The notes under the pieces: model-generated
Seen by the model: only the letters and a program-made list of their open reading frames with translations
What the model was told of the DNA's origin: nothing
Databases searched by the model: none
In this document: positions 6,369-53,000 of the stretch, piece after piece
How positions within the stretch are numbered: the first letter of the stretch is position 1
Layout: each line of letters opens with the position of its first letter
Origin: Antedon mediterranea
Taxonomy: Eukaryota; Echinodermata; Crinoidea; Comatulida; Antedonidae
DNA: 64,000 nt
Direction of reading: 5' to 3'
Assembly (NCBI RefSeq): GCF_964355755.1
Contig: NC_092680.1
Coordinates: 16,283,001 to 16,347,000, forward strand
Position numbers and translations under genes: made by a program

Positions 6369-8144
6369 ATGGACAACACAAGAATTTCCAAATGTAGGAG
6401 TTCTGAGAGGTTAAAAAAGAAACAAAGTTATGTCTTTCAAATGCCAACTACAAGAGAATACCTTGCCACAATTGATAAATATACACCAAGAAAGTCAATT
6501 TCAAGTTTAAGGCCACGGAAGCTTATCAACAGCTTTATTCCTGAGTAAGTTTACTTACGCATAATAGTTTGTTGCATGCCTTCTGCCAAAGAATAAGTCT
6601 GGTCAACCGGTAAGGAAATTCTGGTAGATTCGTCTACTTTCATTATTTTATCACTAGGATAAATACATTTTAACACTTTTAAGTACAGTAATCTAATAAT
6701 ACAGAAAGCATTATTCAAAGTTAATTGTTTTAGATTGCTTGTTATCAATCAAAGTTGTTGCTTTCTCTTTTGCAGAAGAAACCGGTACAACAACAGTGAT
6801 GGTCTAGTATTAAGTGAAGATGATGACGAATTGCTGGAGTTTGTCAAATACTCAAGTGAATCAGATGACTGGGAAATATTGTATGAAGAAACCAATAAAT
6901 CTGTAACAAAACGGAAATGTAAACAAATAAGTGGGAAAAGAAAATCACTTTGTTTGGGAAAAATTTATGAAAAATCTGGTAATTCGATTAAGCAAACAAA
7001 TTACAAACTCAGGAAAACATCTAGAAAAAGCAAGCCATCAGTTGTTTGTCGTAAAGGAAGAAGATTAAATTCACATGCACAGTCAAGTTCTTCAGATGAA
7101 AACATCCGGGTAGAAAATATTACTATAAATACGAGACGAAGAAGAATAAAATTGTTAAAACAATTAAGTTTGTCAGATGAAGAAGACCATGTATTGGAAA
7201 ATATTAGTGCAAGAACAAGACAAAGAAGATTAAAATTACAAACACAGTCATCAAGCTCATCACAGGAAGAGGACCTTGTAGAGGAATTTACATCACCAAA
7301 AAGCCGTAAAAGATTAAAATTGCAGACACAGTCAAGTTCATCTGATGAAGAGGACCATGTAGTGGAGAATATTAGTGCAAGAACAAGACACAGAAGATTA
7401 AAATTACAAACACAGTCATCAAGCTCATCAGAGGAAGAGGACCTTGTAGAGGAATTTACATCACCAAAACGCCGTAGAAGATTAAATTTGCAGACACAGT
7501 CAAGTTCATCTGATGAAGAGGACCTTGTAGAAAATATTGGTGCAACAAAAAGACAAAGAAGATTAAAATTGCAGACACAGTCAAGTTCATCTGATGAAGA
7601 GTACCTTGTAGAAAATATTGGTGCAACTAAAAGACAGAAAAGATTACAATTACAAACACAGTCAAGTTCATCTGACGCAGATGACCTTATGGAGACTATT
7701 AGGGAAAAAAGAAGACATAATAGGCCTAGAATAAAATTACAGACACAGTCAAGTTCATCTGATGAAGATGACCTTATGGAAGCTATTAAGAAAAAAAGAC
7801 ACAGAAGATTAAAATTACAAACGCTGTCAAGTTCTTCTGACGAAGATGACCTCATGGAGACCATTAGGAAAAAAGGAAGACATAGTAGGCCTCGTACGAA
7901 ATTGCGGACACATTTAAGTTCCTCTGATGAAGATGACCTTATGGAAGCTAATAAGAAAGAAAGACAGAGTAGAATTAAATTACAAACACAGTCAAGTTCA
8001 TCAGAAAAAGAAGATATTGTAGAAGCTATTAGTAAGGAAAGAAGATCTACCAGAATAAAGGCAAAAGAAGATACGTCTGATATTGTGGAAAATATCAGTA
8101 AGAAAAGAAGATCTAGCAGAATAAAATTGCAGACACAATTTTAG
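6369..8144 (+). CDS. Unrecognised Ser/acidic-Arg/Lys tandem-repeat protein, two coding exons, about 514 aa
   Basis: Exon 1 is 6369-6544 (ATG in good context, GAAAATGG; donor GTAAGT), exon 2 is 6776-8144 after TTTTGCAG; the split codon GA|A joins in frame. Residues 1-59 are basic and unlike the rest (REYLATIDKYTPRKS). Residues about 60-85 are acidic (SEDDDELLEF). From about residue 140 to the end come roughly 13 units of 26-29 residues: SSSSDEED, a short LVENI/LMETI segment, an Arg/Lys-rich run, then KLQTQ. The Ser-acidic blocks fit casein kinase 2 sites and the basic blocks fit nuclear localisation or nucleic-acid contact; both are inference. The stop comes from a small indel inside one more repeat, so the ancestral protein was probably longer. 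I do not recognise a family. Confidence 0.7.
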
Positions 8145-9792: not shown

Positions 9793-10383
9793 TTATCTTT
9801 GACAAACAAGAATTGCATGTTTATAGTTTTTTTTATAAAGAAACAAGTTCAACGTAGGATCGAAATCTAGAAAATACCTTTTTTTTTCACGCTTTCAGTG
9901 AATTTTTATCTAATTAGATGTCTATTTTTATGGCTGAATAAAATATATCTTTGCAACAAATGATTAAAAAATTAAGAATTATAATACAGTGTAGTATGGA
10001 TATAAAGGAAAGTCATGCTTTTATATTATTAAAAAGACGTTACAGGTAAACCGCGCATTATAATATTATTTGTAACGTCATCACTCTATGACGATTTCTG
10101 CACATGCGTATTTTGGATCAATCGGCGAACTTGGAAATTACAAATATTGCATTGAATTCCATCATTGTTGTTAAATTGTACTCAATAGCGACACAAATTG
10201 TATATGAATATTTATATGTTTGTTTATTTGGTTACTGAATTAAAAATAATTTGCTTTTTAGACGCCTTGTCTCTGCCTAGGCTTAAAAACAAAATTAATT
10301 ATGCTGTACATTTAGTAACATCCAAATTATTATTAAGTAATGGTATTGTTATAGTCCCACAAATAAAAATAATACTGATAATT

Positions 10384-10425
10384 TGCGAATTGAATAATCA
10401 CTGTAGACAAATACAATCATTAAAC
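10384..10425 (+). promoter_or_regulatory. Proximal promoter element of ncRNA unit A (PSE/TATA-like)
   Basis: TGCGAATTGAATAATCACTG then an AT-rich ACAAATACAATCATTAAA. The TGCG begins 53 nt before the unit's 5' pairing segment, the same distance as in units B, C and D. This layout resembles external promoters of snRNA-type polymerase III genes (proximal element near -50, AT box near -25). Confidence 0.6.
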
Positions 10426-10433
10426 TAAGCAAG

Positions 10434-10612
10434 GGTGCCGACACTTTGTTGCGGTACTTCTGCTTGTTAAAATGTTGCCATGTCACGTGTCGCCAAGGAA
10501 TTTCACACTTCCTCGGAGTAGCGTGATGGGCTTCAATCAAAAGCTTTACAAACTAAATTTATCCAAGGTCTATGATACTTGCAGGAGGCTCCAGTGAAGT
10601 GTTGGTTTTTTT
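10434..10612 (+). ncRNA. Structured ncRNA unit A, probable polymerase III transcript, class unknown
   Basis: About 175 nt. The 5' segment GCCGACACTT (10437-10446) pairs with AAGUGUUGGU near 10597-10606, directly followed by a run of seven T that would end polymerase III transcription. A second helix pairs CUUCUGC (about 10458-10464) with GCAGGAG (10581-10587). Between them a hairpin forms from UCACG with CGUGA and an inner AGGAA with UUCCU. The words ACACTTTGTTGCGGTACTTC and AGGAGGCTCCAGTGAAGTG are almost identical in unit C. There is no usable ORF and no internal A/B box, which argues against a tRNA, SINE or vault RNA. Not recognised as U6, 7SK, RNase P, MRP or Y RNA, but a database covariance search was not possible. 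Confidence 0.6.
10606..10612 (+). terminator. T-run after unit A
   Basis: Seven T residues at the end of the 3' pairing strand; a typical polymerase III stop. Confidence 0.5.
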
Positions 10613-12224
10613 ATTTTTATGTTCAGTGCTTTCAAAATGTAATTAAGTATGCCATATACAAACTATTTTTTGTGGCGTGAAACACCACTTTTATTCTTTC
10701 AGTATTAATGATCAATTATACACTTTAATCATACATATCTGTTCATTCTACATCTGTTTGTTATGCAATTTTTTCTTTGTTAATTTAATAACAAGATCAA
10801 TTCAATTTATTAGTAATATATTTGTAAATTTTAAAATGTTAACATTTCTTTTCCAGTTATCCTCTTTACATAAAATACTATGAGCCTGTATAGGTCATTA
10901 TTAAACTTTTTTTTTTTGTATGCAATGTTGATAATTCGTAGGTCTGTTATTGGTTATTGTAACAATTTTCCAATTTGTTTTCTTAAGATTTTATCTGTAC
11001 AGCAGTATTAAAACATGGCCTAAATACGAGGCAAACCACATAAATAAATAATGTTTTACAAATGATACATGTAAAAACCTACTTCGTTCGTATTGGCCAA
11101 GAAAGGTTAACAAATGCAATTATTCGTCATTTTTTCGCGACTAATCGTTACCCAAAAACTATTGGACATCTGAACTAAAATCAAATTGTTGCTTTCTTTT
11201 GACCAAAAGGTATACACAAATAAAAATCGCCTTTCTTCCTTCATTTTCGCCATATTCATTGAAAAGTTCACAGTGAAGTGAATCGTGTATAGTAGATCAG
11301 CTGTGACAGAGAAAATTAGAAATCGGATCGAAAATGTAAGCAAAAACTGGCTTTATAGATTCAATGCAAATAACCTTTTATTTTGTTTAGGTATTTTAAT
11401 GTTATTACTGATATAATTTATTATTTGTTTTACCCTAGGATCGCTTGTTATTTAAAAAATTGATACATAATAGGCCTAATATATTAGGCATCATTATGTC
11501 CATTTATTAGTAACTTAAAAGTTTATTATTAAGAAACTGACGCACAATATATTATACATTCATATGCAGGAGTCCAGTTAATAGTAACATATAAGTTGAT
11601 TATTATAATAATACAAGTACGATGTAATATTTCGATGAGAAGTTGATCCTAAAAAAAGCGGGATTACTCTGCAAACAGTGTGAATACATTGATCAGTCAA
11701 TCTATCTCAACTGTTCCGCACTGTTCAGAGTGCCCTGTCGATCCACTGTGCGTTGTATATTCATAGCGCTGACCGGGATTCGATATTTATTTTAGTACAT
11801 AAGTTGGGACCCCTCATGAAACGTCAAATTGGCGTATCTCAATCTCATTGACCGGATGCCGGAGAGTCATGTCGAATATTCCCTTGACGTGAATCGATGA
11901 TATTTGTTGCACATGCGTAGTTCAGAACCACTTGCTGTATTTGGAATTTCCAGATTATTAATTTTGGATCATTATTTTCGACATAATAGCCTACGCACAA
12001 TAGGCCTACGTCGTGTCCGTAAAATGTTATGAATATGTATGTGAGCTTTTCTTTTCCTTCCTAACTTTTCACAATATTGAATTATTGTTTTACAAGTGAA
12101 ATAGGTAATATAGGCCGCTCACAGAATAGGTATATGACGTCATTGTATCATTTGAGTCCCCTATTATATGCTACAAATTAAGCTTCAATGAAATGATTTG
12201 AAATATGAAATGACACTGAATACG

Positions 12225-12266
12225 TGCGAATTGAACATTTAAGATACATAAATACGATTTTTAAAT
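12225..12266 (+). promoter_or_regulatory. Proximal promoter element of ncRNA unit B
   Basis: TGCGAATTGAACATTTAAG then ATAAATACGATTTTTAAAT, with TGCG 53 nt before the 5' pairing segment. Same arrangement as units A, C and D. Confidence 0.6.
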
Positions 12267-12274
12267 CAATTGAT

Positions 12275-12526
12275 GGTATCCTGACACTTTGTTGCGGCGA
12301 CTGTGATTATTGTAATCCCGTGCAGCGTAGTATCGATGAGTTTTGTTCTGTGGGTGTAACTGAATTCATTGGTGTTTACGCGACGTTTGAGCAATACTTG
12401 CAAACATTAGCTACTGACTTATATCAAATATCAAGCTTTACTTATACTTATTCTATACACGTTAAATACCATAAAGAAACAGCTATGTGAATGACAAGTC
12501 CCAGTGGAGTGTCGGGTGTCTTTTTT
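12275..12526 (+). ncRNA. Structured ncRNA unit B, probable polymerase III transcript, class unknown
   Basis: About 250 nt. CCUGACACUU (12280-12289) pairs with GAGUGUCGGG (12507-12516), then GTGTC and six T. Relative to unit D, a G-U pair has become G-C and a U-A pair has become U-G, so pairing is kept while sequence changes. An inner GCGU/ACGC helix replaces GCGU/ACGU of unit D. It starts ACACTTTGTTGCGGCGA as in D; the middle has diverged. A frame of 88 codons across it (12224-12490) is not conserved in D and is not believed to be protein. Confidence 0.55.
12521..12526 (+). terminator. T-run after unit B
   Basis: Six T directly downstream of the closing helix. Confidence 0.45.
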
Positions 12527-12639
12527 GTAGGCCTATAGTAATTGGTATTTGTATGATTGTGCTTTATTTGACTGAAACATCCATTTTATTCCTCGTCGCA
12601 GTACTATTAATTTTGAAGACCTTGTCTTTAAAATATTAG

Positions 12640-12706
12640 AGAATAATAGTACAAGAACAAGACAGAAGATTAAAATTACAAACACAGTCATCAAGTTCAT
12701 CGGATG
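12640..12706 (+). pseudogene. Single scrap of the acidic/basic repeat
   Basis: AGATTAAAATTACAAACACA then GTCATCAAGTTCATCGGATG matches the repeat unit of the gene at 6369-8144 almost base for base. It sits just left of the second duplicated block, which suggests the duplication event took a piece of that gene with it. Confidence 0.75.
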
Positions 12707-13043
12707 TTTTTACCTTTGACATTCCTTGAAATTTTCTCTAACGTAAAAGAAAGCTAAACAAGAATTACATGTTTATATTGATTTATGAAGAAATGAAGTT
12801 CAGATGTAGGAACGATATTCTAGAAAATACAAATTTTTTGCCGTTTTTATGGTTTAGTGAACTTTTATCTGAAGAAATGATGTAGGCCTACTGTTTTGTC
12901 TATTTTTTCTGGCTGAATAAAAATATACCTTTGTAACAAATGATGTAAAAATAAAGAATTATAATAGTATGGAAAGATATGCTTTTATATTAGAAAGATG
13001 TTACAGATAACCGTGCATTTTAATCTTATTTGTAACGTTAGAT

Positions 13044-13061
13044 CAGGGAGTTGACTCCCTG
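13044..13061. mobile_element. 18-bp inverted-repeat insertion CAGGGAGTTGACTCCCTG with 7-bp target duplication
   Basis: The palindrome is flanked on both sides by GTTAGAT (13037-13043 and 13062-13068). The paralogous position in the left duplicate (about 10075-10085) has no palindrome and only one copy of the flank. A larger relative with the same ends is at 39833-39877. Confidence 0.75.
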
Positions 13062-13361
13062 GTTAGATCACTCTATTATGACGATTGCTGCACATGCGTA
13101 TGGATTAATCGGCGAACTTGGAAATTCCAAATTTTGAATTGCATCAATGTTGTCAATGTAATCGATAACGATAAAAATTGAATTTGAATATTTATATGTT
13201 TGATTTATATTGATTGTGGAATTTAAAACCATTGCGTTTTAAAAGACGCCTGATTTACGTCTTAAAGAAACATTTAATTATGCTGTATTTTAGTAACATC
13301 CAAATACACATTAAGTATTTTTTAATTATTATAGTCACACAAATTAATAACACTGATGATT

Positions 13362-13403
13362 TGCGAATTGAATAATTACTGTCGACAAATACAATCATTA
13401 AAC
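13362..13403 (+). promoter_or_regulatory. Proximal promoter element of ncRNA unit C
   Basis: TGCGAATTGAATAATTACTG then ACAAATACAATCATTAAA, nearly identical to unit A, with TGCG 53 nt before the 5' pairing segment. Confidence 0.6.
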
Positions 13404-13410
13404 TAGATAA

Positions 13411-13584
13411 GGGTACCTGACACTTTGTTGCGGTACTTCTGCTTGTTAATGTAGCCATGTCACGTGTCTTACAGGAATTTACCGTTCCTGGGAGTAACGT
13501 GATAGGCTTCAAATAAATAAAAAACGTATGGGGGACACGTCTATGATACTTGCAGGAGGCTCCAGTGAAGTGTTGGGTTTTTTT
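13411..13584 (+). ncRNA. Structured ncRNA unit C, probable polymerase III transcript, class unknown
   Basis: About 172 nt. ACCUGACACUU (13415-13425) pairs over 11 positions with AAGUGUUGGGU (13568-13578), followed by T7. CUUCUGC pairs with GCAGGAG just inside. The central hairpin is CACGU with ACGUG and, inside it, CAGGAA with UUCCUG; both helices are kept in unit A despite base changes in loops. Unit C is the paralogue of A in the right duplicate. Confidence 0.65.
13578..13584 (+). terminator. T-run after unit C
   Basis: Seven T at the end of the closing helix. Confidence 0.5.
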
Positions 13585-15084
13585 CCTTTTTCTCTGTATG
13601 TTCATCATCATCATCCTACTGTTCAGAACCTCATTTGAGTATAGTCGTTCAGAGCTTAATTTGCAATGTAATTATATTAATAATATGCCACATACAAATA
13701 CTTTGTTTTCTATTTTGTAACATAAAGCACCACTTACTTTGTTACGGTACTTGCTTGTTTCCGGAGCTCAGCATCTGTTGGATCCGGGATCGAGGCTATG
13801 CCAGCCCCTTTGAAAATGACATCATATCCTCGAATACGGCGCAAATCCTAAAGGGTCGTTGGGAGAGACCCGACTTGAATTGTGTTTTGATCTTGAAGAT
13901 ACCACATCCTCCGATAATAGTTCCATAGTATGCTTGATTTTTTACGCTGCTGCTCTAGCCAGCTACGTCCCATGAGGACTACTCATAACTAATTCCGAAG
14001 AAGTACCATTTATAGTATCTGAGGCCGACAGTTTAATTGACCGTTTTGAAATGGGCATGTGATTCATAATTAAAGAACTAGTATCTTTGATTTGTATGTA
14101 TTTTTGCGATTAAAGGACATCTTCTATATATAAATTTACGTAAGGGCAAAAATCGGTAAATCGTGCGTTATTTCTAGAATGTTTACTCGATGGTATATAA
14201 AGTTGGTTCGTACTTTCGGTACTGATTTTAACCGCCTGATGTAACCCTGTTTACTAATTAAATTGAGTTCGATAATTAGTTATTGACGATTAAAACGAAT
14301 TTAGGTTCAACGATTTTCCCCAAATAGGGGTGTTTTCCGATCGTGGTATACACTGTCTAATGGATGTCAATTTGAAAAATACCCGCACACAATAATACGA
14401 GGACACTTCGCATTTTCCTATCTCCTCCTACGATAATTGTTTTTAATAGCTGAAAACCGGTTGAACAGTTCGAGTACAGCATCATAATGTTGAAGACAGG
14501 CCGATTTTCTTTAAAAAATGCTATTTTGATACACGTAATATACGTTTTTACAAATGTATTGATTTGTGATGAATGGAACATTCCAAATTATTTGGTTTAA
14601 CCATACAGGTATAGATTTAGATTTATGGGCCCCCTTGGAGAATAAACATAAATAGTATTGCAATGCTGTACAATACTGTTAAGGTATTAACCACTTTTGA
14701 TCCCAATTTGAATCGCAAATTTCTTACTGTGTGAGTGTTGGTACTGTTAGATATAATATAAACAAATATACAAATAAACTATATTACTGTGAGTATAATA
14801 TACAAATAAATAAACGTTATTACTGACAGTTGCTTCTCAACGTTTGTATTAATTAATAATTTAAAAATATATAAACGTCGTAGGGTGTATCGTTACATGT
14901 ACTTTACTATTTCAATCGACTATGACAGTGAGAGTTTTAACAAAGTATTAAATCGTAAATGTTTTACTGTATTTAGTGGTATATTATTTATAGGCCTATA
15001 AAACATTAAAAACAATATTTCGTTACTGAGTGGATAAGAATATTTTTTAAAATGTTTCCTCTTTGTACCGATCTTCTTCCCCCA

Positions 15085-15245
15085 TCCCTCAACCCTTAGG
15101 CCTAATGTTACATACAAAACACAAATTGGGTTTGTTTAAATGAGTCCAAATAAAAAAATTTGACTCATTTTGTTTCGCTCTCTCTCTCTCTCTCTCTCGG
15201 AAGTAATTCCCAGGGTGCTAATTTTGGTTGACTACATAAATCATT
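15085..15245. repeat. Dispersed repeat, inverted relative at 57660-57812
   Basis: ACAAATTGGGTTTGTTTAAA and CCCAGGGTGCTAATTTT recur in reverse orientation near 57690-57810, in the same order. Confidence 0.7.
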
Positions 15246-15367
15246 GTGTATATTTATTCGTTTCTGTAAACGACAATGTATTATAGTCCTGCAGTACGTA
15301 CATTTGAAATCTCCATTTTTTTCTCGCTGGAAGTACTGTGTATTCGAGAACCATCTGTGGGCACGAC

Positions 15368-15404
15368 CTAGATGGTACGCGAGCGAAGCGAGCGTGCCAT
15401 CTAG
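15368..15404. repeat. 37-bp palindrome with GCGAGCGAAGCGAGCG core
   Basis: CTAGATGGTACGC pairs with GCGTGCCATCTAG around the core. A relative with the same GAGC/GCTC core is at 17675-17709 (TAGAGGGTGAGC...). Strong hairpin, function unknown. Confidence 0.6.
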
Positions 15405-16780
15405 TTTTAATAATTAATCATAAATATATCTGAAGAAAGAACAATGATTAATTTTAAAATGTCGAGCAGCGTTTTTTTGTAAGAAATATTTCTTATATGA
15501 TCAATATAATTTTAATCATAGTGTCTGTTGATTGTTGATTCTACATCTTTTTTTTATATGCAATTTATCCTCATTGCTGGTTATTTATTTTGTTTCATTG
15601 TCCTGACATTAATTTAATAACAAGATCAATTCAATTTAGTAGTAATATTATTGTGTAAATTTTAAAGTTTTAATATTTCTTTCTAGTTACCACACCCTGT
15701 TTTCATCATTCTCTTGTATTTTCCCATTTTCTCTATACTCGTAGGAACATTCCCCGAATACATAAATATAAATATTAACAATAAAATAAACCAATGTGTG
15801 CGTTAAATAAAGTGCCTTATATAAACAATGTAAATGAACTTAGCAAGGTTAAAATATATATTTTCTGTTTTACTTGACATTAATAAAAATATACAGAAGA
15901 GAATTTGAAGTAAAAGGATGGAAGTAGGCCTAATTATATAAAGGACGTTGTAATAAAATATGAAACTCGTTTTCAATTTAATTGTTGTTACCAACTGTAC
16001 AACTTCTTTCCTCTTTTGGTGTTCTTGTCCGCCGTTCTTTTTCATTTTCGAGGTCAAGAAGAACACCAATCTAAACTTATTTATAATTGTTTTTATACAT
16101 TTTGTTTTATTAATCGTTTAGGCCTACCCTCGGATATGATCGCTTGTTATTTAAAAAATGTATAACCATGCATGTCCATTTAATACTGTAGAAGTAAGAG
16201 TATAGTAACCAATAGGTTTATTATTATTGTAATAATAAGATACATGGAATAATAGTGGGCCTAATATTTCGATGAGAATATGACTCGCTGTTGACCCTAA
16301 ACTTTGAAAAGCGGGACTTATTCTGCAAACTGTGTGACGTGACTAAATTGATCATTCAATCTATTTCAAACTTGTTCAGCGTAGGCCTACTTCCTTGTCC
16401 ACTGAGTGCGTTGCATATTCCCATAGCGCTGACTGATCAAATTGGCGTATTAATATCTGACTTTACCGGATGGACAGTCATATTAAATAATTTTCCCTTG
16501 ACGTGAATCTTAATATTTTGTTGCACATGCGTATGTCAGAACCACCAGCAAATTTGGAAATTCCAGCGTAAAATGAATGTTATGAAAAATGTATGGCAGC
16601 TTTTCTTTTCCTTTATAACTTTGAAATTATTGTTTTACAAGTGTAATAGGTAATGGGCCGCTTTTAGTAGGCCTATACATAATTATGACGTCATGTATCA
16701 TTTGAGTCACTACTAGTATTATATGCTACACATTAAGCTTCAATGACATTATTTGAAGTCATGAAATGACACTGATGTCG

Positions 16781-16822
16781 TGCGAATTGAACATTTACTG
16801 TAGACAAATAAGATTTTTAGAT
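16781..16822 (+). promoter_or_regulatory. Proximal promoter element of ncRNA unit D
   Basis: TGCGAATTGAACATTTACTG then ACAAATAAGATTTTTAGAT, with TGCG 53 nt before the 5' pairing segment. The upstream CATTTGAGTC and TTAAGCTTCAATGA words are shared with unit B. Confidence 0.6.
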
Positions 16823-16830
16823 CCATTGGA

Positions 16831-17070
16831 AGTACCTGACACTTTGTTGCGGCGATCGAATTGTTAATTGTTGTCATGTAGCGTAGCATCGGCGGATTTT
16901 GTTCTATATTTGGTGTAACTGGGTTCATTGGTGTTACGTGATGGGCAACACTTATCAAAAATATATAGCTATCGACTTATATCAAATCTTATTCTATATT
17001 ACAAAACACTTTATAATGAAATGGCTAACGGTTAAAAAGTCCCAGTGAAGTGTTGGGTGTCTTTTTTTTT
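16831..17070 (+). ncRNA. Structured ncRNA unit D, probable polymerase III transcript, class unknown
   Basis: About 237 nt. ACCUGACACUU (16834-16844) pairs fully with AAGUGUUGGGU (17048-17058), then GUC and T9. GUUGUC (about 16868) pairs with GGGCAAC (about 16949) and GCGU with ACGU inside, giving a long central stem like the one in A and C. D is the paralogue of B in the right duplicate. Confidence 0.6.
17062..17070 (+). terminator. T-run after unit D
   Basis: Nine T, three bases after the closing helix. Confidence 0.5.
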
Positions 17071-17174
17071 ATATGGAGAGTGTGGGTATTCGTTTGTGCT
17101 TCTTTGAGAGAGATAGACATAATATGTTGCATTCTATTTCTTCTCTACTTTTAAAGAGTAGGTCTAATAAATGT

Positions 17175-17418
17175 TCTGTTATCAGTATTCGTTGCATAGT
17201 TTTTTTTTAAATGTATAAACGTAAAATCTAACGCAATGCAAACAAATTAAATATTATAATTATCCGTCCCAAATACTACACTATAAAACGACGTATCTGT
17301 TATCAGTATTCGTTGCATAGTTTTTTTTTTAAATGTATAAACGTAAAATCTAACGCAATGCAAACAAATTAAATATTATAATTATCCGTCCCAAATACTA
17401 CACTATAAAACGACGTAT
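17175..17418. repeat. Direct tandem repeat, two copies of 121 bp
   Basis: TCTGTTATCAGTATTCGTTG starts at 17175 and again at 17296; the units are nearly identical, so the duplication is recent. Confidence 0.9.
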
Positions 17419-17709
17419 ATAGTATAGTGTGGGGGTGGGTGGGGGGGGGAATAAAATAACGAAACGGTCGCTATGTAATTAGGCCTCTACAGAATACTCC
17501 ACTCTAAAATAAAAATGAAAATCGGCCAATTACTTTTTGAGTAACTACTGCTAGAATTATAGAAAGTAAAAAATTCCTGCTAAAAATATAGAAAGATTAC
17601 AGATACACAAAACTACATTATAACCTCTCGACAGTCTGGCGATTATTGTAAAGATTGTGCAAATTAGACATAAATAGAGGGTGAGCTCGCTTCGCTCGCT
17701 CCCCCTCTA

Positions 17710-39877: not shown

Positions 39878-40725
39878 CTTTGATCAACACTAATGTACAG
39901 TTTTTGGCAAATCCTTGAATACCTATTAGACTAGTCCAGATAGTCATATTTCCACTCTAATAAGATGCTGGAGGCATTTCGTGTTAAAAGCGAAAAAATA
40001 TGTGTTTTAGGGTAATTTTGGGGTGCTAAATTCAAATCTGCTGTTTACCCGGCTCAATTTTTAGATCTTCACCCTTAAAATGTGAAAACAAAATGGCCGC
40101 CATTTCAGACTTATTTTGGCTTATAACTTGACTTTTAAGTGACGTAGCAAGTTAAAAATGGTATCTATACCCATATTTGTGATACTGAGGATTCCAAATA
40201 TATTGTTATTAAAGTTGTAAATATTCTATTTCAGCCGCCATGTTGAAATCCGATATGGCCGCCATTTTAAACGTATTTTGGCTTATAACTTGACTTCTAA
40301 GTGACGTAGCAAGTTAAAAATGGTGTCTATACCTATGTTTGTGATTATGAAGATTCCAAATATATTGTTATTAAAGTTGTAAATATTCTATTTCAGCCGC
40401 CATGTTGAAATCCGATATGGCCGCCATTTTAAACGTATTTTGGCTTATAACTTGACTTCTAAGTGACGTAGCAAGTTAAAAATGGTGTCTATACCTATGT
40501 TTGTGATTATGAAGATTCCAAATATACTGTTATTAAAGTTGTAAATATTCTATTTCAGCCGCCATGTTTGAAATCCAAGATGGCCGCCATTTTAAACATA
40601 TTTTGCCTTATTAACTAATTGACTTTTAAGTAACATAGTAGGTTAAAAATGATGTCTTTACCTATGTTTGTGATACTGAGGATTCTAAACAATAAAAATG
40701 ACGAAACCTGTGAGAATGAGAGAAA

Positions 40726-40798
40726 GCCCCTAACTGAGATTCGAACCCGGAACCTTCTGCTTGATATGCAGATGTTCTAACCATTAGACCACCGGGGC
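40726..40798 (-). tRNA. Decayed tRNA-like sequence (anticodon AUC), copy 1
   Basis: Read on the - strand: GCCCCGGTGGTCTAATGG, anticodon stem TCTGC/GCAGA with loop ATATCAA, and TTCGAAT T-loop. The acceptor has one mismatch and the T-stem is broken. Flanking words (GAATGAG, GGTATTGTTC-like) match copies 2 and 3. Confidence 0.55.
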
Positions 40799-43676: not shown

Positions 43677-43788
43677 AAACACAAGAGGCAAAGAACATTA
43701 ATTCTAAACCGCCCGGTGATATACTGAAATTTAATTAATTAATTTGAAACGATAAAGATGAGGAAATCTGTGAGAATGAGAAAAAGTC

Positions 43789-43859
43789 ACCCCAACCGAG
43801 ACTCGAACTCGGACCGCCTGCTTGATATGCAGATGTCCTAGCCATTAGACCACTGGGGC
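43789..43859 (-). tRNA. tRNA-like gene with Glu-type body and AUC anticodon, copy 2
   Basis: 71 nt with full cloverleaf on the - strand: 7-bp acceptor with two G-U pairs, D stem GTCT/GGAC, anticodon stem TCTGC/GCAGG, loop ATATCAA (anticodon AUC, formally Asp), T stem CCGAG/CTCGG with loop TTCGAGT. The D arm TGGTCTAATGGCTAGGA resembles eukaryotic tRNA-Glu. T5 follows three bases after the 3' end. Embedded in a repeated unit, so it may be SINE-like rather than a working tRNA. Confidence 0.6.
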
Positions 43860-44152
43860 TTTCATGGTATTGTTCGAACTCGATTGTATAACGACTCTTT
43901 AACATTCTTGGCGTGGTACGGCGGAACAGCACTAGTCCTCAGTTGTACGCACGCGCAACAGAGATCAAATTGATACGCCCTCATCTTTCAGTATTTTTAT
44001 TCACGAGGCGGGATCTCCGAAGAGATACTTTTATATATATAAACACAAGAGGCAAAGAACATTAATTCTAAACCACCCGGTGATATACTGAAATTTAATT
44101 AATTAATTTGAAACGATAAAGATGAGGAAATCTGTGAGAATGAGAAAAAGTC

Positions 44153-44223
44153 GCCCCAACCGAGACTCGAACTCGGACCGCCTGCTTGATATGCAGATGT
44201 CCTAACCATTAGACCACTGGGGC
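44153..44223 (-). tRNA. tRNA-like gene with Glu-type body and AUC anticodon, copy 3
   Basis: As copy 2, but with a better acceptor stem (GCCCCAG with TTGGGGC, a single G-U pair) and D loop AATGGTTA. Anticodon loop ATATCAA is unchanged. TTTTT at 44145-44149 follows at once. This is the best preserved of the three copies. Confidence 0.65.
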
Positions 44224-47033: not shown

Positions 47034-50000
47034 ATGCCCGACCAAAATCTGATCGAGAAGCAGCCGTTTTTGCGAGATAATGGTAAGATACGTTGAAAGT
47101 TTATGATGCAACTGCCTACTCAGTTCCTATTTGTGTACATCCATATGTGTTTGAAAACTTAAATTAATAAATACTCTTTAATTTATAACTATTTCGAACA
47201 GTTAAAAAAAACCTTTAAATCACTTTTGAAAAGTTCACCTTACTTGTCAATTCATTCATTCATATCATTCATGTCGTTATATTTCGTATTATACAAAATA
47301 AATTAAGTTGATCAAAACGTTGAGATTAAAATGAAATATTATATGCAAACTAAAAACAAGTTTGTTTCCAGAGCAAACTTATTACACCCAGTGTTATTTG
47401 CTCTTTGTTTTTCTACATTTTTTAGATAATTCACGAACGTTGAAAATTCGCTATGTAATAACATTTCTATGTTTTGTTGGAAGTACTTTAATTTATGCTG
47501 CCAGAGTAAACTGGAGTATAGCTATACTGTATATGGCACGTCAAGAAAGTGACAATACGAATTCCACAGATTCTGAAGTAAATGAAGGCAGCAGCCAAAT
47601 AGTAAGTTTCATTTTTGACACTACTATTGGACTAGGCCTATATATTTCTATTCATGTTATATTAAGTTCTTTAACGTGCACTATATGTACACACGGGACA
47701 AAGCTTATCAAACACTAAAAGTACGATTTATTGGTTCTCATTGAACAGTAAATGATATTTCAATAGCCTTCACTCTTGTTAAGATTGTAAATAATCACGG
47801 GATAAACAGCTTTCATGTTTATGAAGATTGTATAGGCTTATAATAGAAAATACTCACGGTAGACAGTTCTTTTCTTTTTCCACAAAGGGCCTACTCTAAT
47901 TCTATGCTAACCCATTACATCAGACCTATACTGTATTTCCAGTAAAAAAATTCTTTACATACGATAATAACATTTTGTTGCATTGCGGGAGCTGCTGCTG
48001 CCCACCTTATTAATTTACATTCTTCAATGATATAATTACTATAGTTTCAATTTTTAATTTGTAGAATTACGGTAACGATATTAGGTAGGTTTCGCAACCT
48101 TACGAATACGATAACGAAAACGGATAGGTCACACATTTGTGAAACTTTTGAGCTGATCCCCATTTCATATTCGTAAAGCGTATTCGTGTTGACGAATCGT
48201 CGTCGTGGTCCTGTGAGTCATGACTGACCCTTTGTGCTCCTGCCTATGATGACATTCCACCCATATCTATCCTGAGCATAGAGAGAAGCTGTGCACACAT
48301 CCAATCCTGTGATCTCTCTAATACCATCAGTCCATCTTATCTTCTGTCTACCACGTTTTCGCTTGCCTTCTACATGACCTTGTGCAATTACCTTTTCCAA
48401 GTTGTCACCTTCTCTCCTGGCAATATGACCAAAGTACTGAAGTTTGATCTTATCAACCTTCTGGCATAGGTTGACTCTGCTTCCAATGTGGTTGTTAACA
48501 AATTCATTTGACTTATGCTCCTTCCACGATATCCTCGACAATCTCCTCCAACACCACATTTCAAAAGCTTTGATCTTCTTTCTATCTGCAGCTCCAAGAG
48601 CCCATGTATCAGATCCATAAGTGGCAATCGGAAATACCAATGCATTCATGATATGAATCTTTGTGTTTCTTGAGATCCCTCTATCCTTCCAAATGTTGGT
48701 ACGACCTATTGTGGATGTTCTAGCCATAGCGAGACGACGTTTTATTTCCTCTGAGCTTCCTCCAGTGTCAACAATCAGGGAGCCAAGAAAGTTGAAGGTG
48801 TTGACTACTTCTATGTCCTCTCCATCTGCTTGAATGCGATTTTCATTCTTCCTTCCACTTATCATTACTTTCGTCTTCTTGACATTGAGGTAAAGACCAT
48901 ATTCCTCACTGGATTGCTTTACTTTTTCAATCAGATCTTGGAGTTCTGCCGCAGTTCTTGCAATTAAGGTTGTGTCATCTGCATATCTCAGATTATTTAA
49001 TTGCCGGCCACCGATAGATATCTGCCCCTCGTAGCCATCTATGGCAATCCGCATGATGTATTCTGCGTAGACATTAAAGAGATACGGTGACAGGATACAT
49101 CCTTGGCGTACTCCTTGACCTATCGTAAACCAGTCGCTATCTCCACAATCTGTTCTGACCGTGGCTTCCTGACCATCATATAAGGATTTTATTAAGACAA
49201 TCAGATATGTTGAGAAGCCCATTTTGCGCATTACTCTCCACAATTTCTGGTGTTGAACACAGTCAAAAGCCTTTGTGTAATCTATGAAGCAGAGGAAAGT
49301 GGCTGCTGAAATTCCATGGTCTTCTCCATCAAATTCCTCAAGTTTCCAATCTGATTTCTCGTTCCTCTTCCTCTCCTAAATCCAGCTTGCTCTGGTGGTA
49401 ATTCACTTTCTAACTTATTCCTGATTCTATCTGCTATAGGCCTAATGTGGAGCAGGACTTTACTAGCATGAGAGATAAGTGAAATGGTACGGTTGTTAGC
49501 ACATTCCCTTACATCCCCTTTCTTCGGTAATGGGAGAAACACTGCCTTTTTCCAGTCTTCGGGCCATTCTTTACTCTTCCAGATCTTGTTGCACAATCTA
49601 TGGATGATAACAACACCTTCCTCTCCACTTTCCTTCAGCAATTCTGCCTGGATGTTATCTACTCCTGGTGCTTTACCATTTCTTAACTTCTTCATTGCAT
49701 TATCAACTTCACAGAGAAGAATATCTGGGTCATCTTCAAAATCTTGCTGTTCTCTCTCCTCCTGTGTATCATCATCTTTGGATGCATACAACTGTTCACA
49801 GTATTCCTTCCACCTTGTTTTGATTTCATCTTCTTCCGTCAAGATGTTACCATCTTTGTCCTTCAGAACATTGATCCTGGTGCTAGGTTTTGAAGTCAGT
49901 AGCTTGATGTTTTTATACATGTCTTTGGTGTTGTTTGTAGCGCTGTCTTTCTCCACCTCGGCACATCTCTGTCTGATGAACTCTGTTTTGTCATTTCTGA

Positions 50001-53000
50001 TTCGTTTCTGGATTTCTCTTGATAAATCCCGGTATTCTCTTTTCCTCTCTGCACTTTCCAGTCCTTTTTCTTTGACCTCTCTCCTCTGATCAGCCAGGGC
50101 AAATACCTTGTCACCAGTCATATTCGTAACTACAAAACGAGTATAGTTTTTGATCTATTTTGCACATTTTGCATTTGAAACAGGAATGATTCATGATTAT
50201 AATATAATTATAGATTTATTGAAAGTAATTTACTAAAGTAATTTACTAAAATGCCAGGTCAATTTTGATAAATAGCAGTTTTTAAAGTCCTCACTCGCTT
50301 TGATGTTACGCTAGGCCTAGGCAGCCAAGCACCAGGCAACACGTACCTGCACTTCGCTCAAATTTACCGCAGTCATATTTTGGACGGCGCCCTCAATATT
50401 TCGTTACCATGTGAAACAGATTTTTACTGGCTTACGAAAACGAATACGTGTGACGTGCGTGACGTATCCGTTTTCGTTATCGTATTCGTAAGATTGCGAA
50501 ACCTCTCTAATATTTACTAACTTTTGAACCCAAAGCTGCTAATAACTATAGGAACGATTTATTATAAAATTGCGGGTATAAAAACAAAAAGTACTATTAC
50601 ACGTTCGTATAATTTAGTAGGCCTATACGTATACTAAAATTGCACACCATGTGACTAAAAATCGTTCAGTCAAATGACAGAAATGTATTTATATGTTATA
50701 TAAAACAAATCGGTGTTTAAGGATGACCAATGTTAATGTGACGACCTTCAGAACGTGTTCAGCACAAAATCAGTTTGTAATGTTGTCTATGTTTCAAAAT
50801 GGTGTTATTAAGCTAATTTTGTATTCTAAACTGTAGATTTAAGAAAAAACAATCAGAAAAGATAATTATATCTATCGCAGGAGCGCAAGCAATATTATTT
50901 TTAAATTAAATGTCTTTCGTTGATTAAACAGCATGCTTAACCGAGTTAGTATTGTTACAGGTATATACGTTTGACTGGAACATGAAAACGCAACAAATCA
51001 TTTTAGGTTCTTTCTACTGTGGCTATTCAGTTGGACCTATTCTTGGAGGTTGGTTAGTTGGAAGATTTGGTGGGTTTTCTATGCTCATGACTGGAATATT
51101 GTTTACAACTTTTCCCATGCTAGTAACCCAGTTTGCTGCACATTTTGGCGTTGGTTTTGTAATATTGACCAGAATTATTGATGGCTTTGGACAGGTATAT
51201 TATCCAACTTTATGTTTTTGAAACTTGATTTAATTGAGACATTAATGTTATTATTATTATATATTATTATAATTGTATGAAGTTCAATATAGAATGTATT
51301 GCAAAAAGTCACAAATGTCAACGTTCTGTTATTACCCGAATGCTATTTTTTCTAGGGTATTGCATATCCAGCAAATTTAGTCTTGATTAGAAATTGGTCA
51401 AAAGCAGATGAACGTAATACGCTATTAGCTATTGCTTTTTCAGGTATATTTTATATTTACTGTAGCCTACGTTTCATTTGCATGTAGGCCCTATCTGTTT
51501 AATGTATTATCGTGTTTTTTAATCTTGGAATACAAATTTCAATTACTGTGTATTTGACAATAAATTTGAACTTGAAGCCACTTTTGAAATGGATTGTACT
51601 CACTGTTGTAGCCCTAGTGTTACAAAAATATGTTAATTGTATTTTAGGTTGTAGTGTAGGACCAATACTAACCAGTTATATCTCCACCTGGCTGTGTTCA
51701 TCTGAGTTTATGGGCGGTTGGCCCTCCACATTTTATTTATATGGTAAGTTTGAATCTTAATCTTCTTGAATTTAAAAGAAGATGCAAGTGCTATGAACAA
51801 TTTAGTAAATTAATAACAAAAAATAAAACGATCGAAATGTCATTGACTAACAATATCATGTGGAAATAACTGTACGTTTACGTCTTCAAAATCTTTAAGT
51901 TTGTACCATCCATACATTTCGAGATTAAACACAAGAATTGAAATAGCGAAGGTAACACCAAGAGACTTGATTCCTGGTAATGTGGTAGACCTAGGATGTA
52001 TATGTATGTTTTTTCTACGCTGCAATATCTTACAAATGTGTTCTGTTTACAGGGACGATTGGTGTTGTCTGGTGTGTTGTGTGGTGTATTGTGGGATCAA
52101 AAACCAATATGCAGTCAAATTTACAAGTAAGACATTAATATAAACTTAACAATGAAATAGGCCTACACAACTCATATTGTGATACAATAGGATGTCTGAT
52201 CTAAAAATAGAAAATTTTGGATGTTGAAAGTTTCATTATTGCTTTATAATTTAAGTAATTACTCTTTTTTCGTAATTTAGATGTATTCAGAAGCTGTAAG
52301 GTTTTTTTTTACAGTGTATACTGGTTATTGATTCATCATTTAAAAAAAGTATATTAATTATTTCCTTTAATTGATTATTAACATCATTTTGAATCATTGC
52401 ATCTTCTAAATCTGTAAGCAACTTCTAATTTAGTTATAATTTATTATAAGTCTTTATACTTTAAGATTATATAATATTTATACTATGATACTACAGCATA
52501 TGCCGTTCATAACTTTCACGTAGGCCTACAGGTAACCACACAAGTTAACTTCATTCGATTGGATTCTAATGTTTGGAACAGAAACCGGAGAATAATGTAC
52601 AGAGTGTCGAGAAAGTGCCTTACCCCATGTCACATTATCATTTAGACAGAATTTATAATCCCCAAATTGAATGTAAATTTCTAAACTCGCCAATATGTAA
52701 TGGATTTACATTATGTTATATTAACATTATAGCCTACTCCCAAAATCAAAGGACTGTTACAAGAAATTACCATGACATGCGAGCTGAGCATCCCGTTGTT
52801 AGATTTTCTTGATCATACTCTGATCCCAGCTGCATCATAATATTATGTTACAAATGTATATTTTTATTTTTATTAAACCATAGGACAATTACAATTACGA
52901 AGTTCCATGGAAATTGATGACGTCACCGCCTGTTATTACTTTGTATTTCGTACATTTTGTCTTTGATGCTGGATACATATTACTTATTACAGACATTCCG

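Follow-up and report, generated by a model that had tools for sequence, protein, structure and literature searches.

The 64,000-nt stretch of the crinoid Antedon mediterranea analysed here (hereafter the window; C11:16283001–16347000, contig NC_092680.1, of a 354-Mb assembly in 18 contigs) carries four members, units A–D, of a larger family of predicted small noncoding RNA (ncRNA) genes. With a probability of about 0.8, we consider this to be a lineage-specific family that would be transcribed by RNA polymerase III (Pol III) from promoters of the small nuclear RNA (snRNA) type, i.e. type 3, with RNAs that, by analogy with Y and stem-bulge RNAs, may act as a protein-binding scaffold. The family, the fold, the promoter layout and a 5′ boundary common to two retrocopies are demonstrable at the sequence level. 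Transcription by Pol III, already suggested in a preliminary description of units A–D, is probable because the upstream core, resembling the proximal sequence element (PSE) of snRNA genes, lies at the distance found in the U6, U6atac and MRP genes and not at that of U2, and because a T-run follows the closing stem, P1. The features of the four units, one of which is partly copied next to a long interspersed nuclear element (LINE), are the following (window coordinates; negative positions are relative to the RNA).

10372–10394, + strand: PSE-like upstream element of unit A, ending in TGCGAATTGAA; ACTGA at −63 and TGCGAAT at −53 from 10437; aligned in 13/13 units
10407–10413, + strand: TATA-like ACAAATA of unit A, A/T-rich and degenerate, at −30; L006 and L008 have TATAAA at the corresponding alignment position
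10437–10612, + strand: predicted ncRNA gene of unit A (alignment, fold), with T7 at 10606–10612 and the CC of CC(T)GACAC at 10438; no internal TTTT
12213–12235, + strand: PSE-like upstream element of unit B; ACTGA at −65
12247–12254, + strand: TATA-like CATAAATA of unit B, at −33
12280–12526, + strand: predicted ncRNA gene of unit B with T-run; one internal TTTT, at RNA nt 62
13350–13372, + strand: PSE-like upstream element of unit C; ACTGA at −64
13385–13391, + strand: TATA-like ACAAATA of unit C, at −31
13416–13584, + strand: predicted ncRNA gene of unit C with T-run; no internal TTTT
16769–16791, + strand: PSE-like upstream element of unit D; ACTGA at −64
16804–16810, + strand: TATA-like ACAAATA of unit D, at −31
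16835–17070, + strand: predicted ncRNA gene of unit D with T-run; one internal TTTT, at RNA nt 63
16835–17014, + strand: part of unit D (RNA nt 1–180) joined to a LINE on contig C1; 180/180 D bases identical in that copy (L001), one 7-nt insertion

The shared segments of units A–D are all present as originally reported. Without mismatch, TGCGAATTGAA is found at exactly four places in the window (10384, 12225, 13362 and 16781, all on the + strand), each followed downstream by ACACTTTGTTGCGG and, ~140–220 nt further on, by CCAGTG(A/G)AGTGT(T/C)GG and a T-run. The family had been described as four-membered, which proved too small: a single local cluster of 83 kb on C11 contains 13 promoter-bearing units, 11 with a complete RNA and 2 broken. 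Exact matches to the 14-mer ACACTTTGTTGCGG were retrieved from 12 places in the whole genome (reversed-pattern control, 0). These comprise nine units of the cluster, all at 16.217–16.300 Mb of C11, the LINE-joined copy of unit D on C1, and two apparently unrelated places (L002 and L003) which, judged by eye, show no wider likeness to the units. Four further promoter-bearing units with an altered 14-mer, representing a second subtype (Ua, Ub, Uc and Ue), were found in the 80 kb read upstream of the window. In Ub most of the RNA is missing, and the RNA of Uc is divided by an insert with inverted ends, the 3′ half (Ud) following ~3.6 kb on. This insert (C11:16227938–16231530, in L021) has inverted ends of roughly 50 bp (CGTACATAAGTTGGGGACCCCC...), and a fragment similar to its end lies between units A and B (window about 11796–11831). 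When unit L006 was used as a DNA query against the whole genome, 14 places were retrieved, 13 in the cluster (a count that includes L006 and Ud) and a single one on C6; the search missed unit B and L001, so that its counts are lower bounds.

A block at about −66 to −25 is common to all 13 units in the alignment. In most upstream-cluster units it reads TCACTGATTT(A/T)(T/A)TGCGAAT(G/A)AATTATTTACTG, and a TATA-like stretch comes next, at −30 to −33. The element TGCGAATTGAA, noticed earlier, is real but is only the 3′ part of this block, which extends further 5′. Its spacing to the RNA had been given as constant and exactly 53 nt; it is nearly, but not strictly, constant (54, 55, 54 and 54 nt from TGCGAATTGAA to the CC of CC(T)GACAC in A–D, unit A being without the T after CC), and the figure of 53 hinges on the choice of RNA 5′ end.

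The aligned core is positioned at −64 to −67 from the RNA in 13/13 units. For comparison, we examined the U6, U6atac, RNase MRP, RNase P and U2 genes of the same genome, anchoring ACA-type cores by eye. The U6-type core lies at −65/−66 in all seven placed genes (L013–L016, L018, C8:6367296 and one U6-like gene on C11, the 5′ end of which was shifted 5 nt by hand before the core was placed) and at −66 in both U6atac and MRP. The two RNase P genes have it at −70 and −73 (5′ ends from the Rfam model), and in all four U2 promoter types it is found at −58 to −60. Among the 14 U6 matches listed, eight full-length promoters were read (L017, near-identical to L016, was not placed), as was a ninth, fragmentary one on C10 which was likewise not placed; another U6atac match, of 33.7 bits, was read and left out of the comparison, and the promoters of L034, L035 and L056 repeat the tandem U2 promoter of L033. 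The U2 tandem array, at C3:13.660–13.714 Mb and often with 780-bp spacing, accounts for 43 of the 46 listed U2 matches, a count that is a lower bound. The TATA-like element of the U6, U6atac and MRP reference genes is located at −27 to −34 in eight of the nine placed and at −20 in one U6, and the corresponding stretch in the family is TATAAA/TATAAG in three of the 13 units (L006, L008 and Uc), TTTAAATA in two, CATAAATA in one and ACAA(A/G)TA in seven. Like the U6, U6atac and RNase MRP genes, the units have their upstream core near −66 and what may be a TATA-like element, but they differ in that the RNAs are unrelated by Rfam, the core letters are only partly alike and the TATA-like element is weaker in A–D. 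In their letters the cores seem to resemble the snRNA-gene PSE weakly; their position is the stronger part of the evidence.

The predicted RNAs are ~160–315 nt long and their own 5′ and 3′ ends pair. P1 is formed by CCUGACACUUUGUUGCGG with CC(U/A)GUGAAGUGUYGG; U3 is usually bulged, although Ua and Ue have no bulge. A short helix, P2 (CUUCUGC/GCAGAAG type), is evident in A, C and L005–L008; in the remaining five complete units it is weak or doubtful. A hairpin, P3 (GUCACGUGUC..AAGGAA/UUCCUUGGUGUAACGUGGC in L006), is recognisable in all 11. The remainder of the RNA is an A/U-rich loop, the length of which varies greatly among units. In an alignment of the 11 complete units (the broken Ub and Uc/Ud, counted for the promoter, were excluded), standard pairs occupy 88.4% of 389 cells versus 36.8–50.4% in slid-pair controls, in line with the earlier description of the RNAs as structured, though the structure was drawn from the same sequences and the real alignment is thereby favoured over the slid versions. 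Eight pairs have changed on both sides (shuffled mean 4.1; 8 reached in 9/500 shuffles), and the covariation score is 0.198 (0.064–0.090 when slid; 0.198 reached in 2/500 shuffles); 6 of the 16 P1 pairs are invariant and hence provide no covariation evidence. A T-run of at least four begins within 6 nt of P1 in all complete units, seven of which have no internal TTTT; 46–70% of shuffles of those seven contain one.

Comparison of units in pairs indicates which regions are kept. Identities in A/C and B/D, respectively, are 94% and 100% for the 5′ paired strand (18 nt), 100% and 83% for the 3′ strand, 79% and 62% for the RNA middle, 90% and 82% for the promoter block, 80% and 78% for the upstream flank, and 46% and 51% for the downstream flank. 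On these regional values the paired strands stand out, and the promoter does so little in B/D. It is more prominent in L005/L006, where promoter and upstream flank are 96 and 76% identical, and in Ua/Ue, where they are 98 and 54% identical (with two gap openings in the Ua/Ue block). The 50-bp promoter block contains no gap openings in A/C or B/D, compared with 13 over 364 aligned bases and 12 over 325, respectively, for the upstream stretch; over six unit pairs, the block has none in five and two in Ua/Ue. For any single pair, such an outcome would be only mildly unlikely by chance.

Two stray copies provide evidence on the RNA 5′ end. L001 corresponds to unit D, and its alignment to D halts exactly at RNA nt 1, none of the 60 nt of D upstream DNA offered being matched. 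The D part is separated by ~25 nt of unexplained origin from the 5′ end of a LINE. Other copies of this LINE (L037–L039) have starts at most ~6 nt apart and unrelated flanks, and therefore the junction looks like the LINE's own 5′ end. In L001 and L036–L039, later frames of the LINE hold reverse transcriptase-like stretches, and one frame contains GDSI...GGTND, which we take to be esterase-like. Around the chimera only A/T-rich 9–10-mers were seen and no clear target duplication was found. Chimeras of small RNAs and LINEs formed by template switching or RNA ligation have been reported for U6 and for the ncRNA WEIRD, in the cited portions of PMC13174262 and PMC2104539. As far as these portions go, the U6–L1 and Magnaporthe WEIRD–MGL chimeras resemble L001 in that a small RNA, copied as far as its 5′ end, is attached to a LINE on the LINE's 5′ side; L001 differs in its 3′-shortened RNA part, the ~25 nt between the parts and the lack of a clear target duplication.

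The copy on C6 matches nt 1–176 of an L006-like RNA, is 84% identical with several gaps, and is older than that on C1. It lies in another LINE, by eye inside the reverse-transcriptase frame. Insert-free copies of the host LINE show the site CCAATTGTTTC (read in two of the four empty-site copies), and the insert is therefore flanked by AATT twice, i.e. by a 4-nt target duplication. The two stray copies share their starting base in CCTGACAC, which is the predicted RNA 5′ end. Given this common boundary, RNAs of the family were probably made in the germline. A purine stands one base before CCTGACAC in 12/13 units (B is the exception), and the true start may therefore lie one base upstream.

On these features, the following course of events is the most likely. 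The PSE-like core 64–67 bp upstream and the TATA-like stretch near −30 would place the Pol III start at CC(T)GACAC or about one base ahead of it. Termination would take place in the T-run just past the 3′ strand of P1, releasing an RNA predicted to fold into a long P1, a short P2 in about half of the units, the covarying P3 and a variable A/U-rich loop. A La-type protein might bind the U-tail and a specific protein P1, so that the nearly invariant P1 and the U-tail would form a binding platform, while P3 and the loop would serve as variable arms; the paralogues would differ in the loop.

Several observations weigh against transcription of such a family by Pol III from snRNA-type promoters. The reference-type ACA is found in only 3/13 cores (ACACTGA in B, C and D); among the others, A has ATACTGA and the remaining nine have TCACTGA. 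When a matrix of 11 eye-anchored sites is used, random 7-position windows attain the family score at a frequency of 0.020–0.060 for 12 units and 0.148 for Ua, the units being related by descent and not independent; the best match anywhere in 120 nt falls at −64 to −67 in nine of the 13. The corresponding figure was 11/13 with an earlier matrix built with U2 and one misplaced site among its sites; the best score was then reached by 98–871 of 2000 shuffles. The TATA-like stretches of A–D are degenerate, and the B/D promoter (82%) is barely more alike than the upstream flank (78%). As to the RNA, P2 is 71.4% paired, L004 is without the upper 3′ half of P1, and TTTT occurs internally in B and D (at about the same place) and in the loop of Ua and Ue. 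In the C6 copy, CCTGACAC is preceded by one additional T and P1 contains a 10-nt gap, and both retrocopies are 3′-shortened inside the RNA and thus have no bearing on termination.

The assertion that the RNAs can be matched to no known class agrees with the Rfam scans, which gave no match on units: none was obtained at E≤5 in window 10000–17300 (7.3 kb with A–D), and in L020–L022, covering the other cluster regions, there were two chance-level matches near E=1, both outside units. Identity with RNase P or RNase MRP was dropped since both genes were located elsewhere in the genome. A C/D small nucleolar RNA was likewise rejected, the C box pattern being found in 0/11 complete units. Searches of the open-access literature on Pol III small RNAs, made with guessed terms, retrieved no described RNA fitting the family.

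In build, the nearest RNAs appear to be the Y RNAs and nematode stem-bulge RNAs (sbRNAs). The Ro60 site of Y RNAs carries the motif GGTCCGA, which is present in 0/11 complete units. To the extent described in the cited parts of PMC4450293 and PMC2527325, Y RNAs and sbRNAs share with the family ends paired in a bulged stem, a U-tail, an upstream promoter of the PSE/TATA type and several paralogues with variable loops. The units could accordingly be strongly diverged true homologues bound by Ro60, which would suit the closing stem with one bulged base, the U-tail, the external promoter and the small gene cluster. Such homology is also compatible with a whole-genome search that yielded no Y RNA at E≤1, where 51 of 59,086 first-look candidates were scored and absence is not implied, and with Y-like RNAs reported outside vertebrates in the relevant part of PMC4726728. 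On the other hand, a single bulged cytosine in the lower stem and an A/GUG-CAC/U upper stem, the features given in the cited text of PMC4450293, were not found: the bulge is U in most units and missing from Ua and Ue, and in P1 the 5′ strand carries CAC and the 3′ strand GUG (by eye on folds), the reverse of the Y order. The RNAs are also longer, possess the extra P3 and gave no Y_RNA match in Rfam scans of the unit regions. Membership in the Y RNA/sbRNA class was rejected on bulge base, upper stem and GGTCCGA, and we regard distant homology as unlikely.

We give less credence to the idea that the units are snRNA-like genes of RNA polymerase II (Pol II) with a coincidental T-run. PSE elements serve both polymerases, according to the cited portion of PMC9841428, and the tandem U2 promoter holds a very similar CACACTGATT. 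The family core, however, is at −64 to −67 as in U6, U6atac and MRP, not at −58 to −60 as in U2; the T-run comes directly after P1 in 11/11 complete units; and no Sm-type site was found in these by the one pattern tried.

Still more doubtful is a diverged housekeeping RNA, namely 7SK, vault or telomerase RNA. 7SK was not found in the whole genome, a result in which only the best candidates were scored and absence is not implied; 7SK has conserved GAUC motifs, but GATC is present in 2/11 units, there was no RF00100 match, and the candidate was rejected. Vault RNAs resemble the family in being Pol III transcripts of several copies with paired ends, and they possess internal box A and box B, whereas box A and box B patterns were found in 0/11 units and RF00006 gave no match (a genome-wide vault RNA search was not made), leading to rejection. 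Human and rat vault RNAs measure 86–141 nt in the cited text of PMC550661, compared with ~160–315 nt here. Hymenopteran telomerase RNA is reported, in the part of PMC9841428 concerned, as a type-3 snRNA-like gene, but the templates CCCTAA, CTAACC and TAACCC, sought on the assumption of TTAGGG telomeres, are present in 0/11 units (no genome-wide search was made), and telomerase RNA was dropped. The many copies, together with the lack of Rfam matches on units, also argue against a housekeeping RNA.

The least probable alternative holds that the units are a decayed family of transposons or short interspersed nuclear elements (SINEs), or else a neutral segmental repeat that yields no product; it draws on the position of units in duplicated DNA with transposon pieces and on the two broken units of 13, but is opposed by the lack of dispersal (13 of the 14 L006 matches, a lower bound, lie in the cluster, for which reason transposon identity was dropped), by the upstream block and paired strands being the most conserved parts, by two promoterless stray copies starting at the RNA 5′ end and by the absence of any clear match to a decayed transposon end, the genome-wide queries having been the 14-mer and L006 only.

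This is a real family, new to Rfam, and probably of a kind already known, that of type-3 Pol III small RNAs. We put at roughly even the odds that it represents an undescribed class of Pol III small RNA and ribonucleoprotein without shared descent with Y, vault, 7SK or stem-bulge RNAs, which would have originated in this lineage and expanded as a diverging cluster, with closing stem and promoter block kept and the loop free to vary.

Elsewhere in the window, a reverse-transcriptase frame occupies 48218–50154 on the − strand (Pfam RVT_1, E 2.7e-26 for 48218–49375), and three genes resembling tRNA-Asp, which may be SINE heads and whose anticodon, ATC, is unusual, are found at 40725–40798, 43788–43859 and 44152–44223, also on the − strand. 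At 17200–17425 a 104-bp stretch is repeated with 122-bp spacing and 97% likeness. A 493-aa open frame with many QTQSSSSDE-type repeats (6663–8144, + strand) had no Pfam match at E≤0.001. Contigs C1, C3, C4, C6, C8, C9, C10 and C11 measure 41.4, 39.0, 36.2, 31.7, 28.6, 26.0, 25.0 and 22.3 Mb, respectively, suggesting that 11 large contigs hold most of the 354 Mb.

Pol III RNAs confined to one lineage are readily overlooked because they have no poly(A) tails and no curated models. The defined fold, promoter block and 5′ end make the family testable in RNA-seq data of the species and its relatives, and the eleven complete paralogues constitute a natural mutant series for the requirements of P1 and P3. 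The list of type-3 Pol III RNAs in animals is short, and the family would lengthen it.

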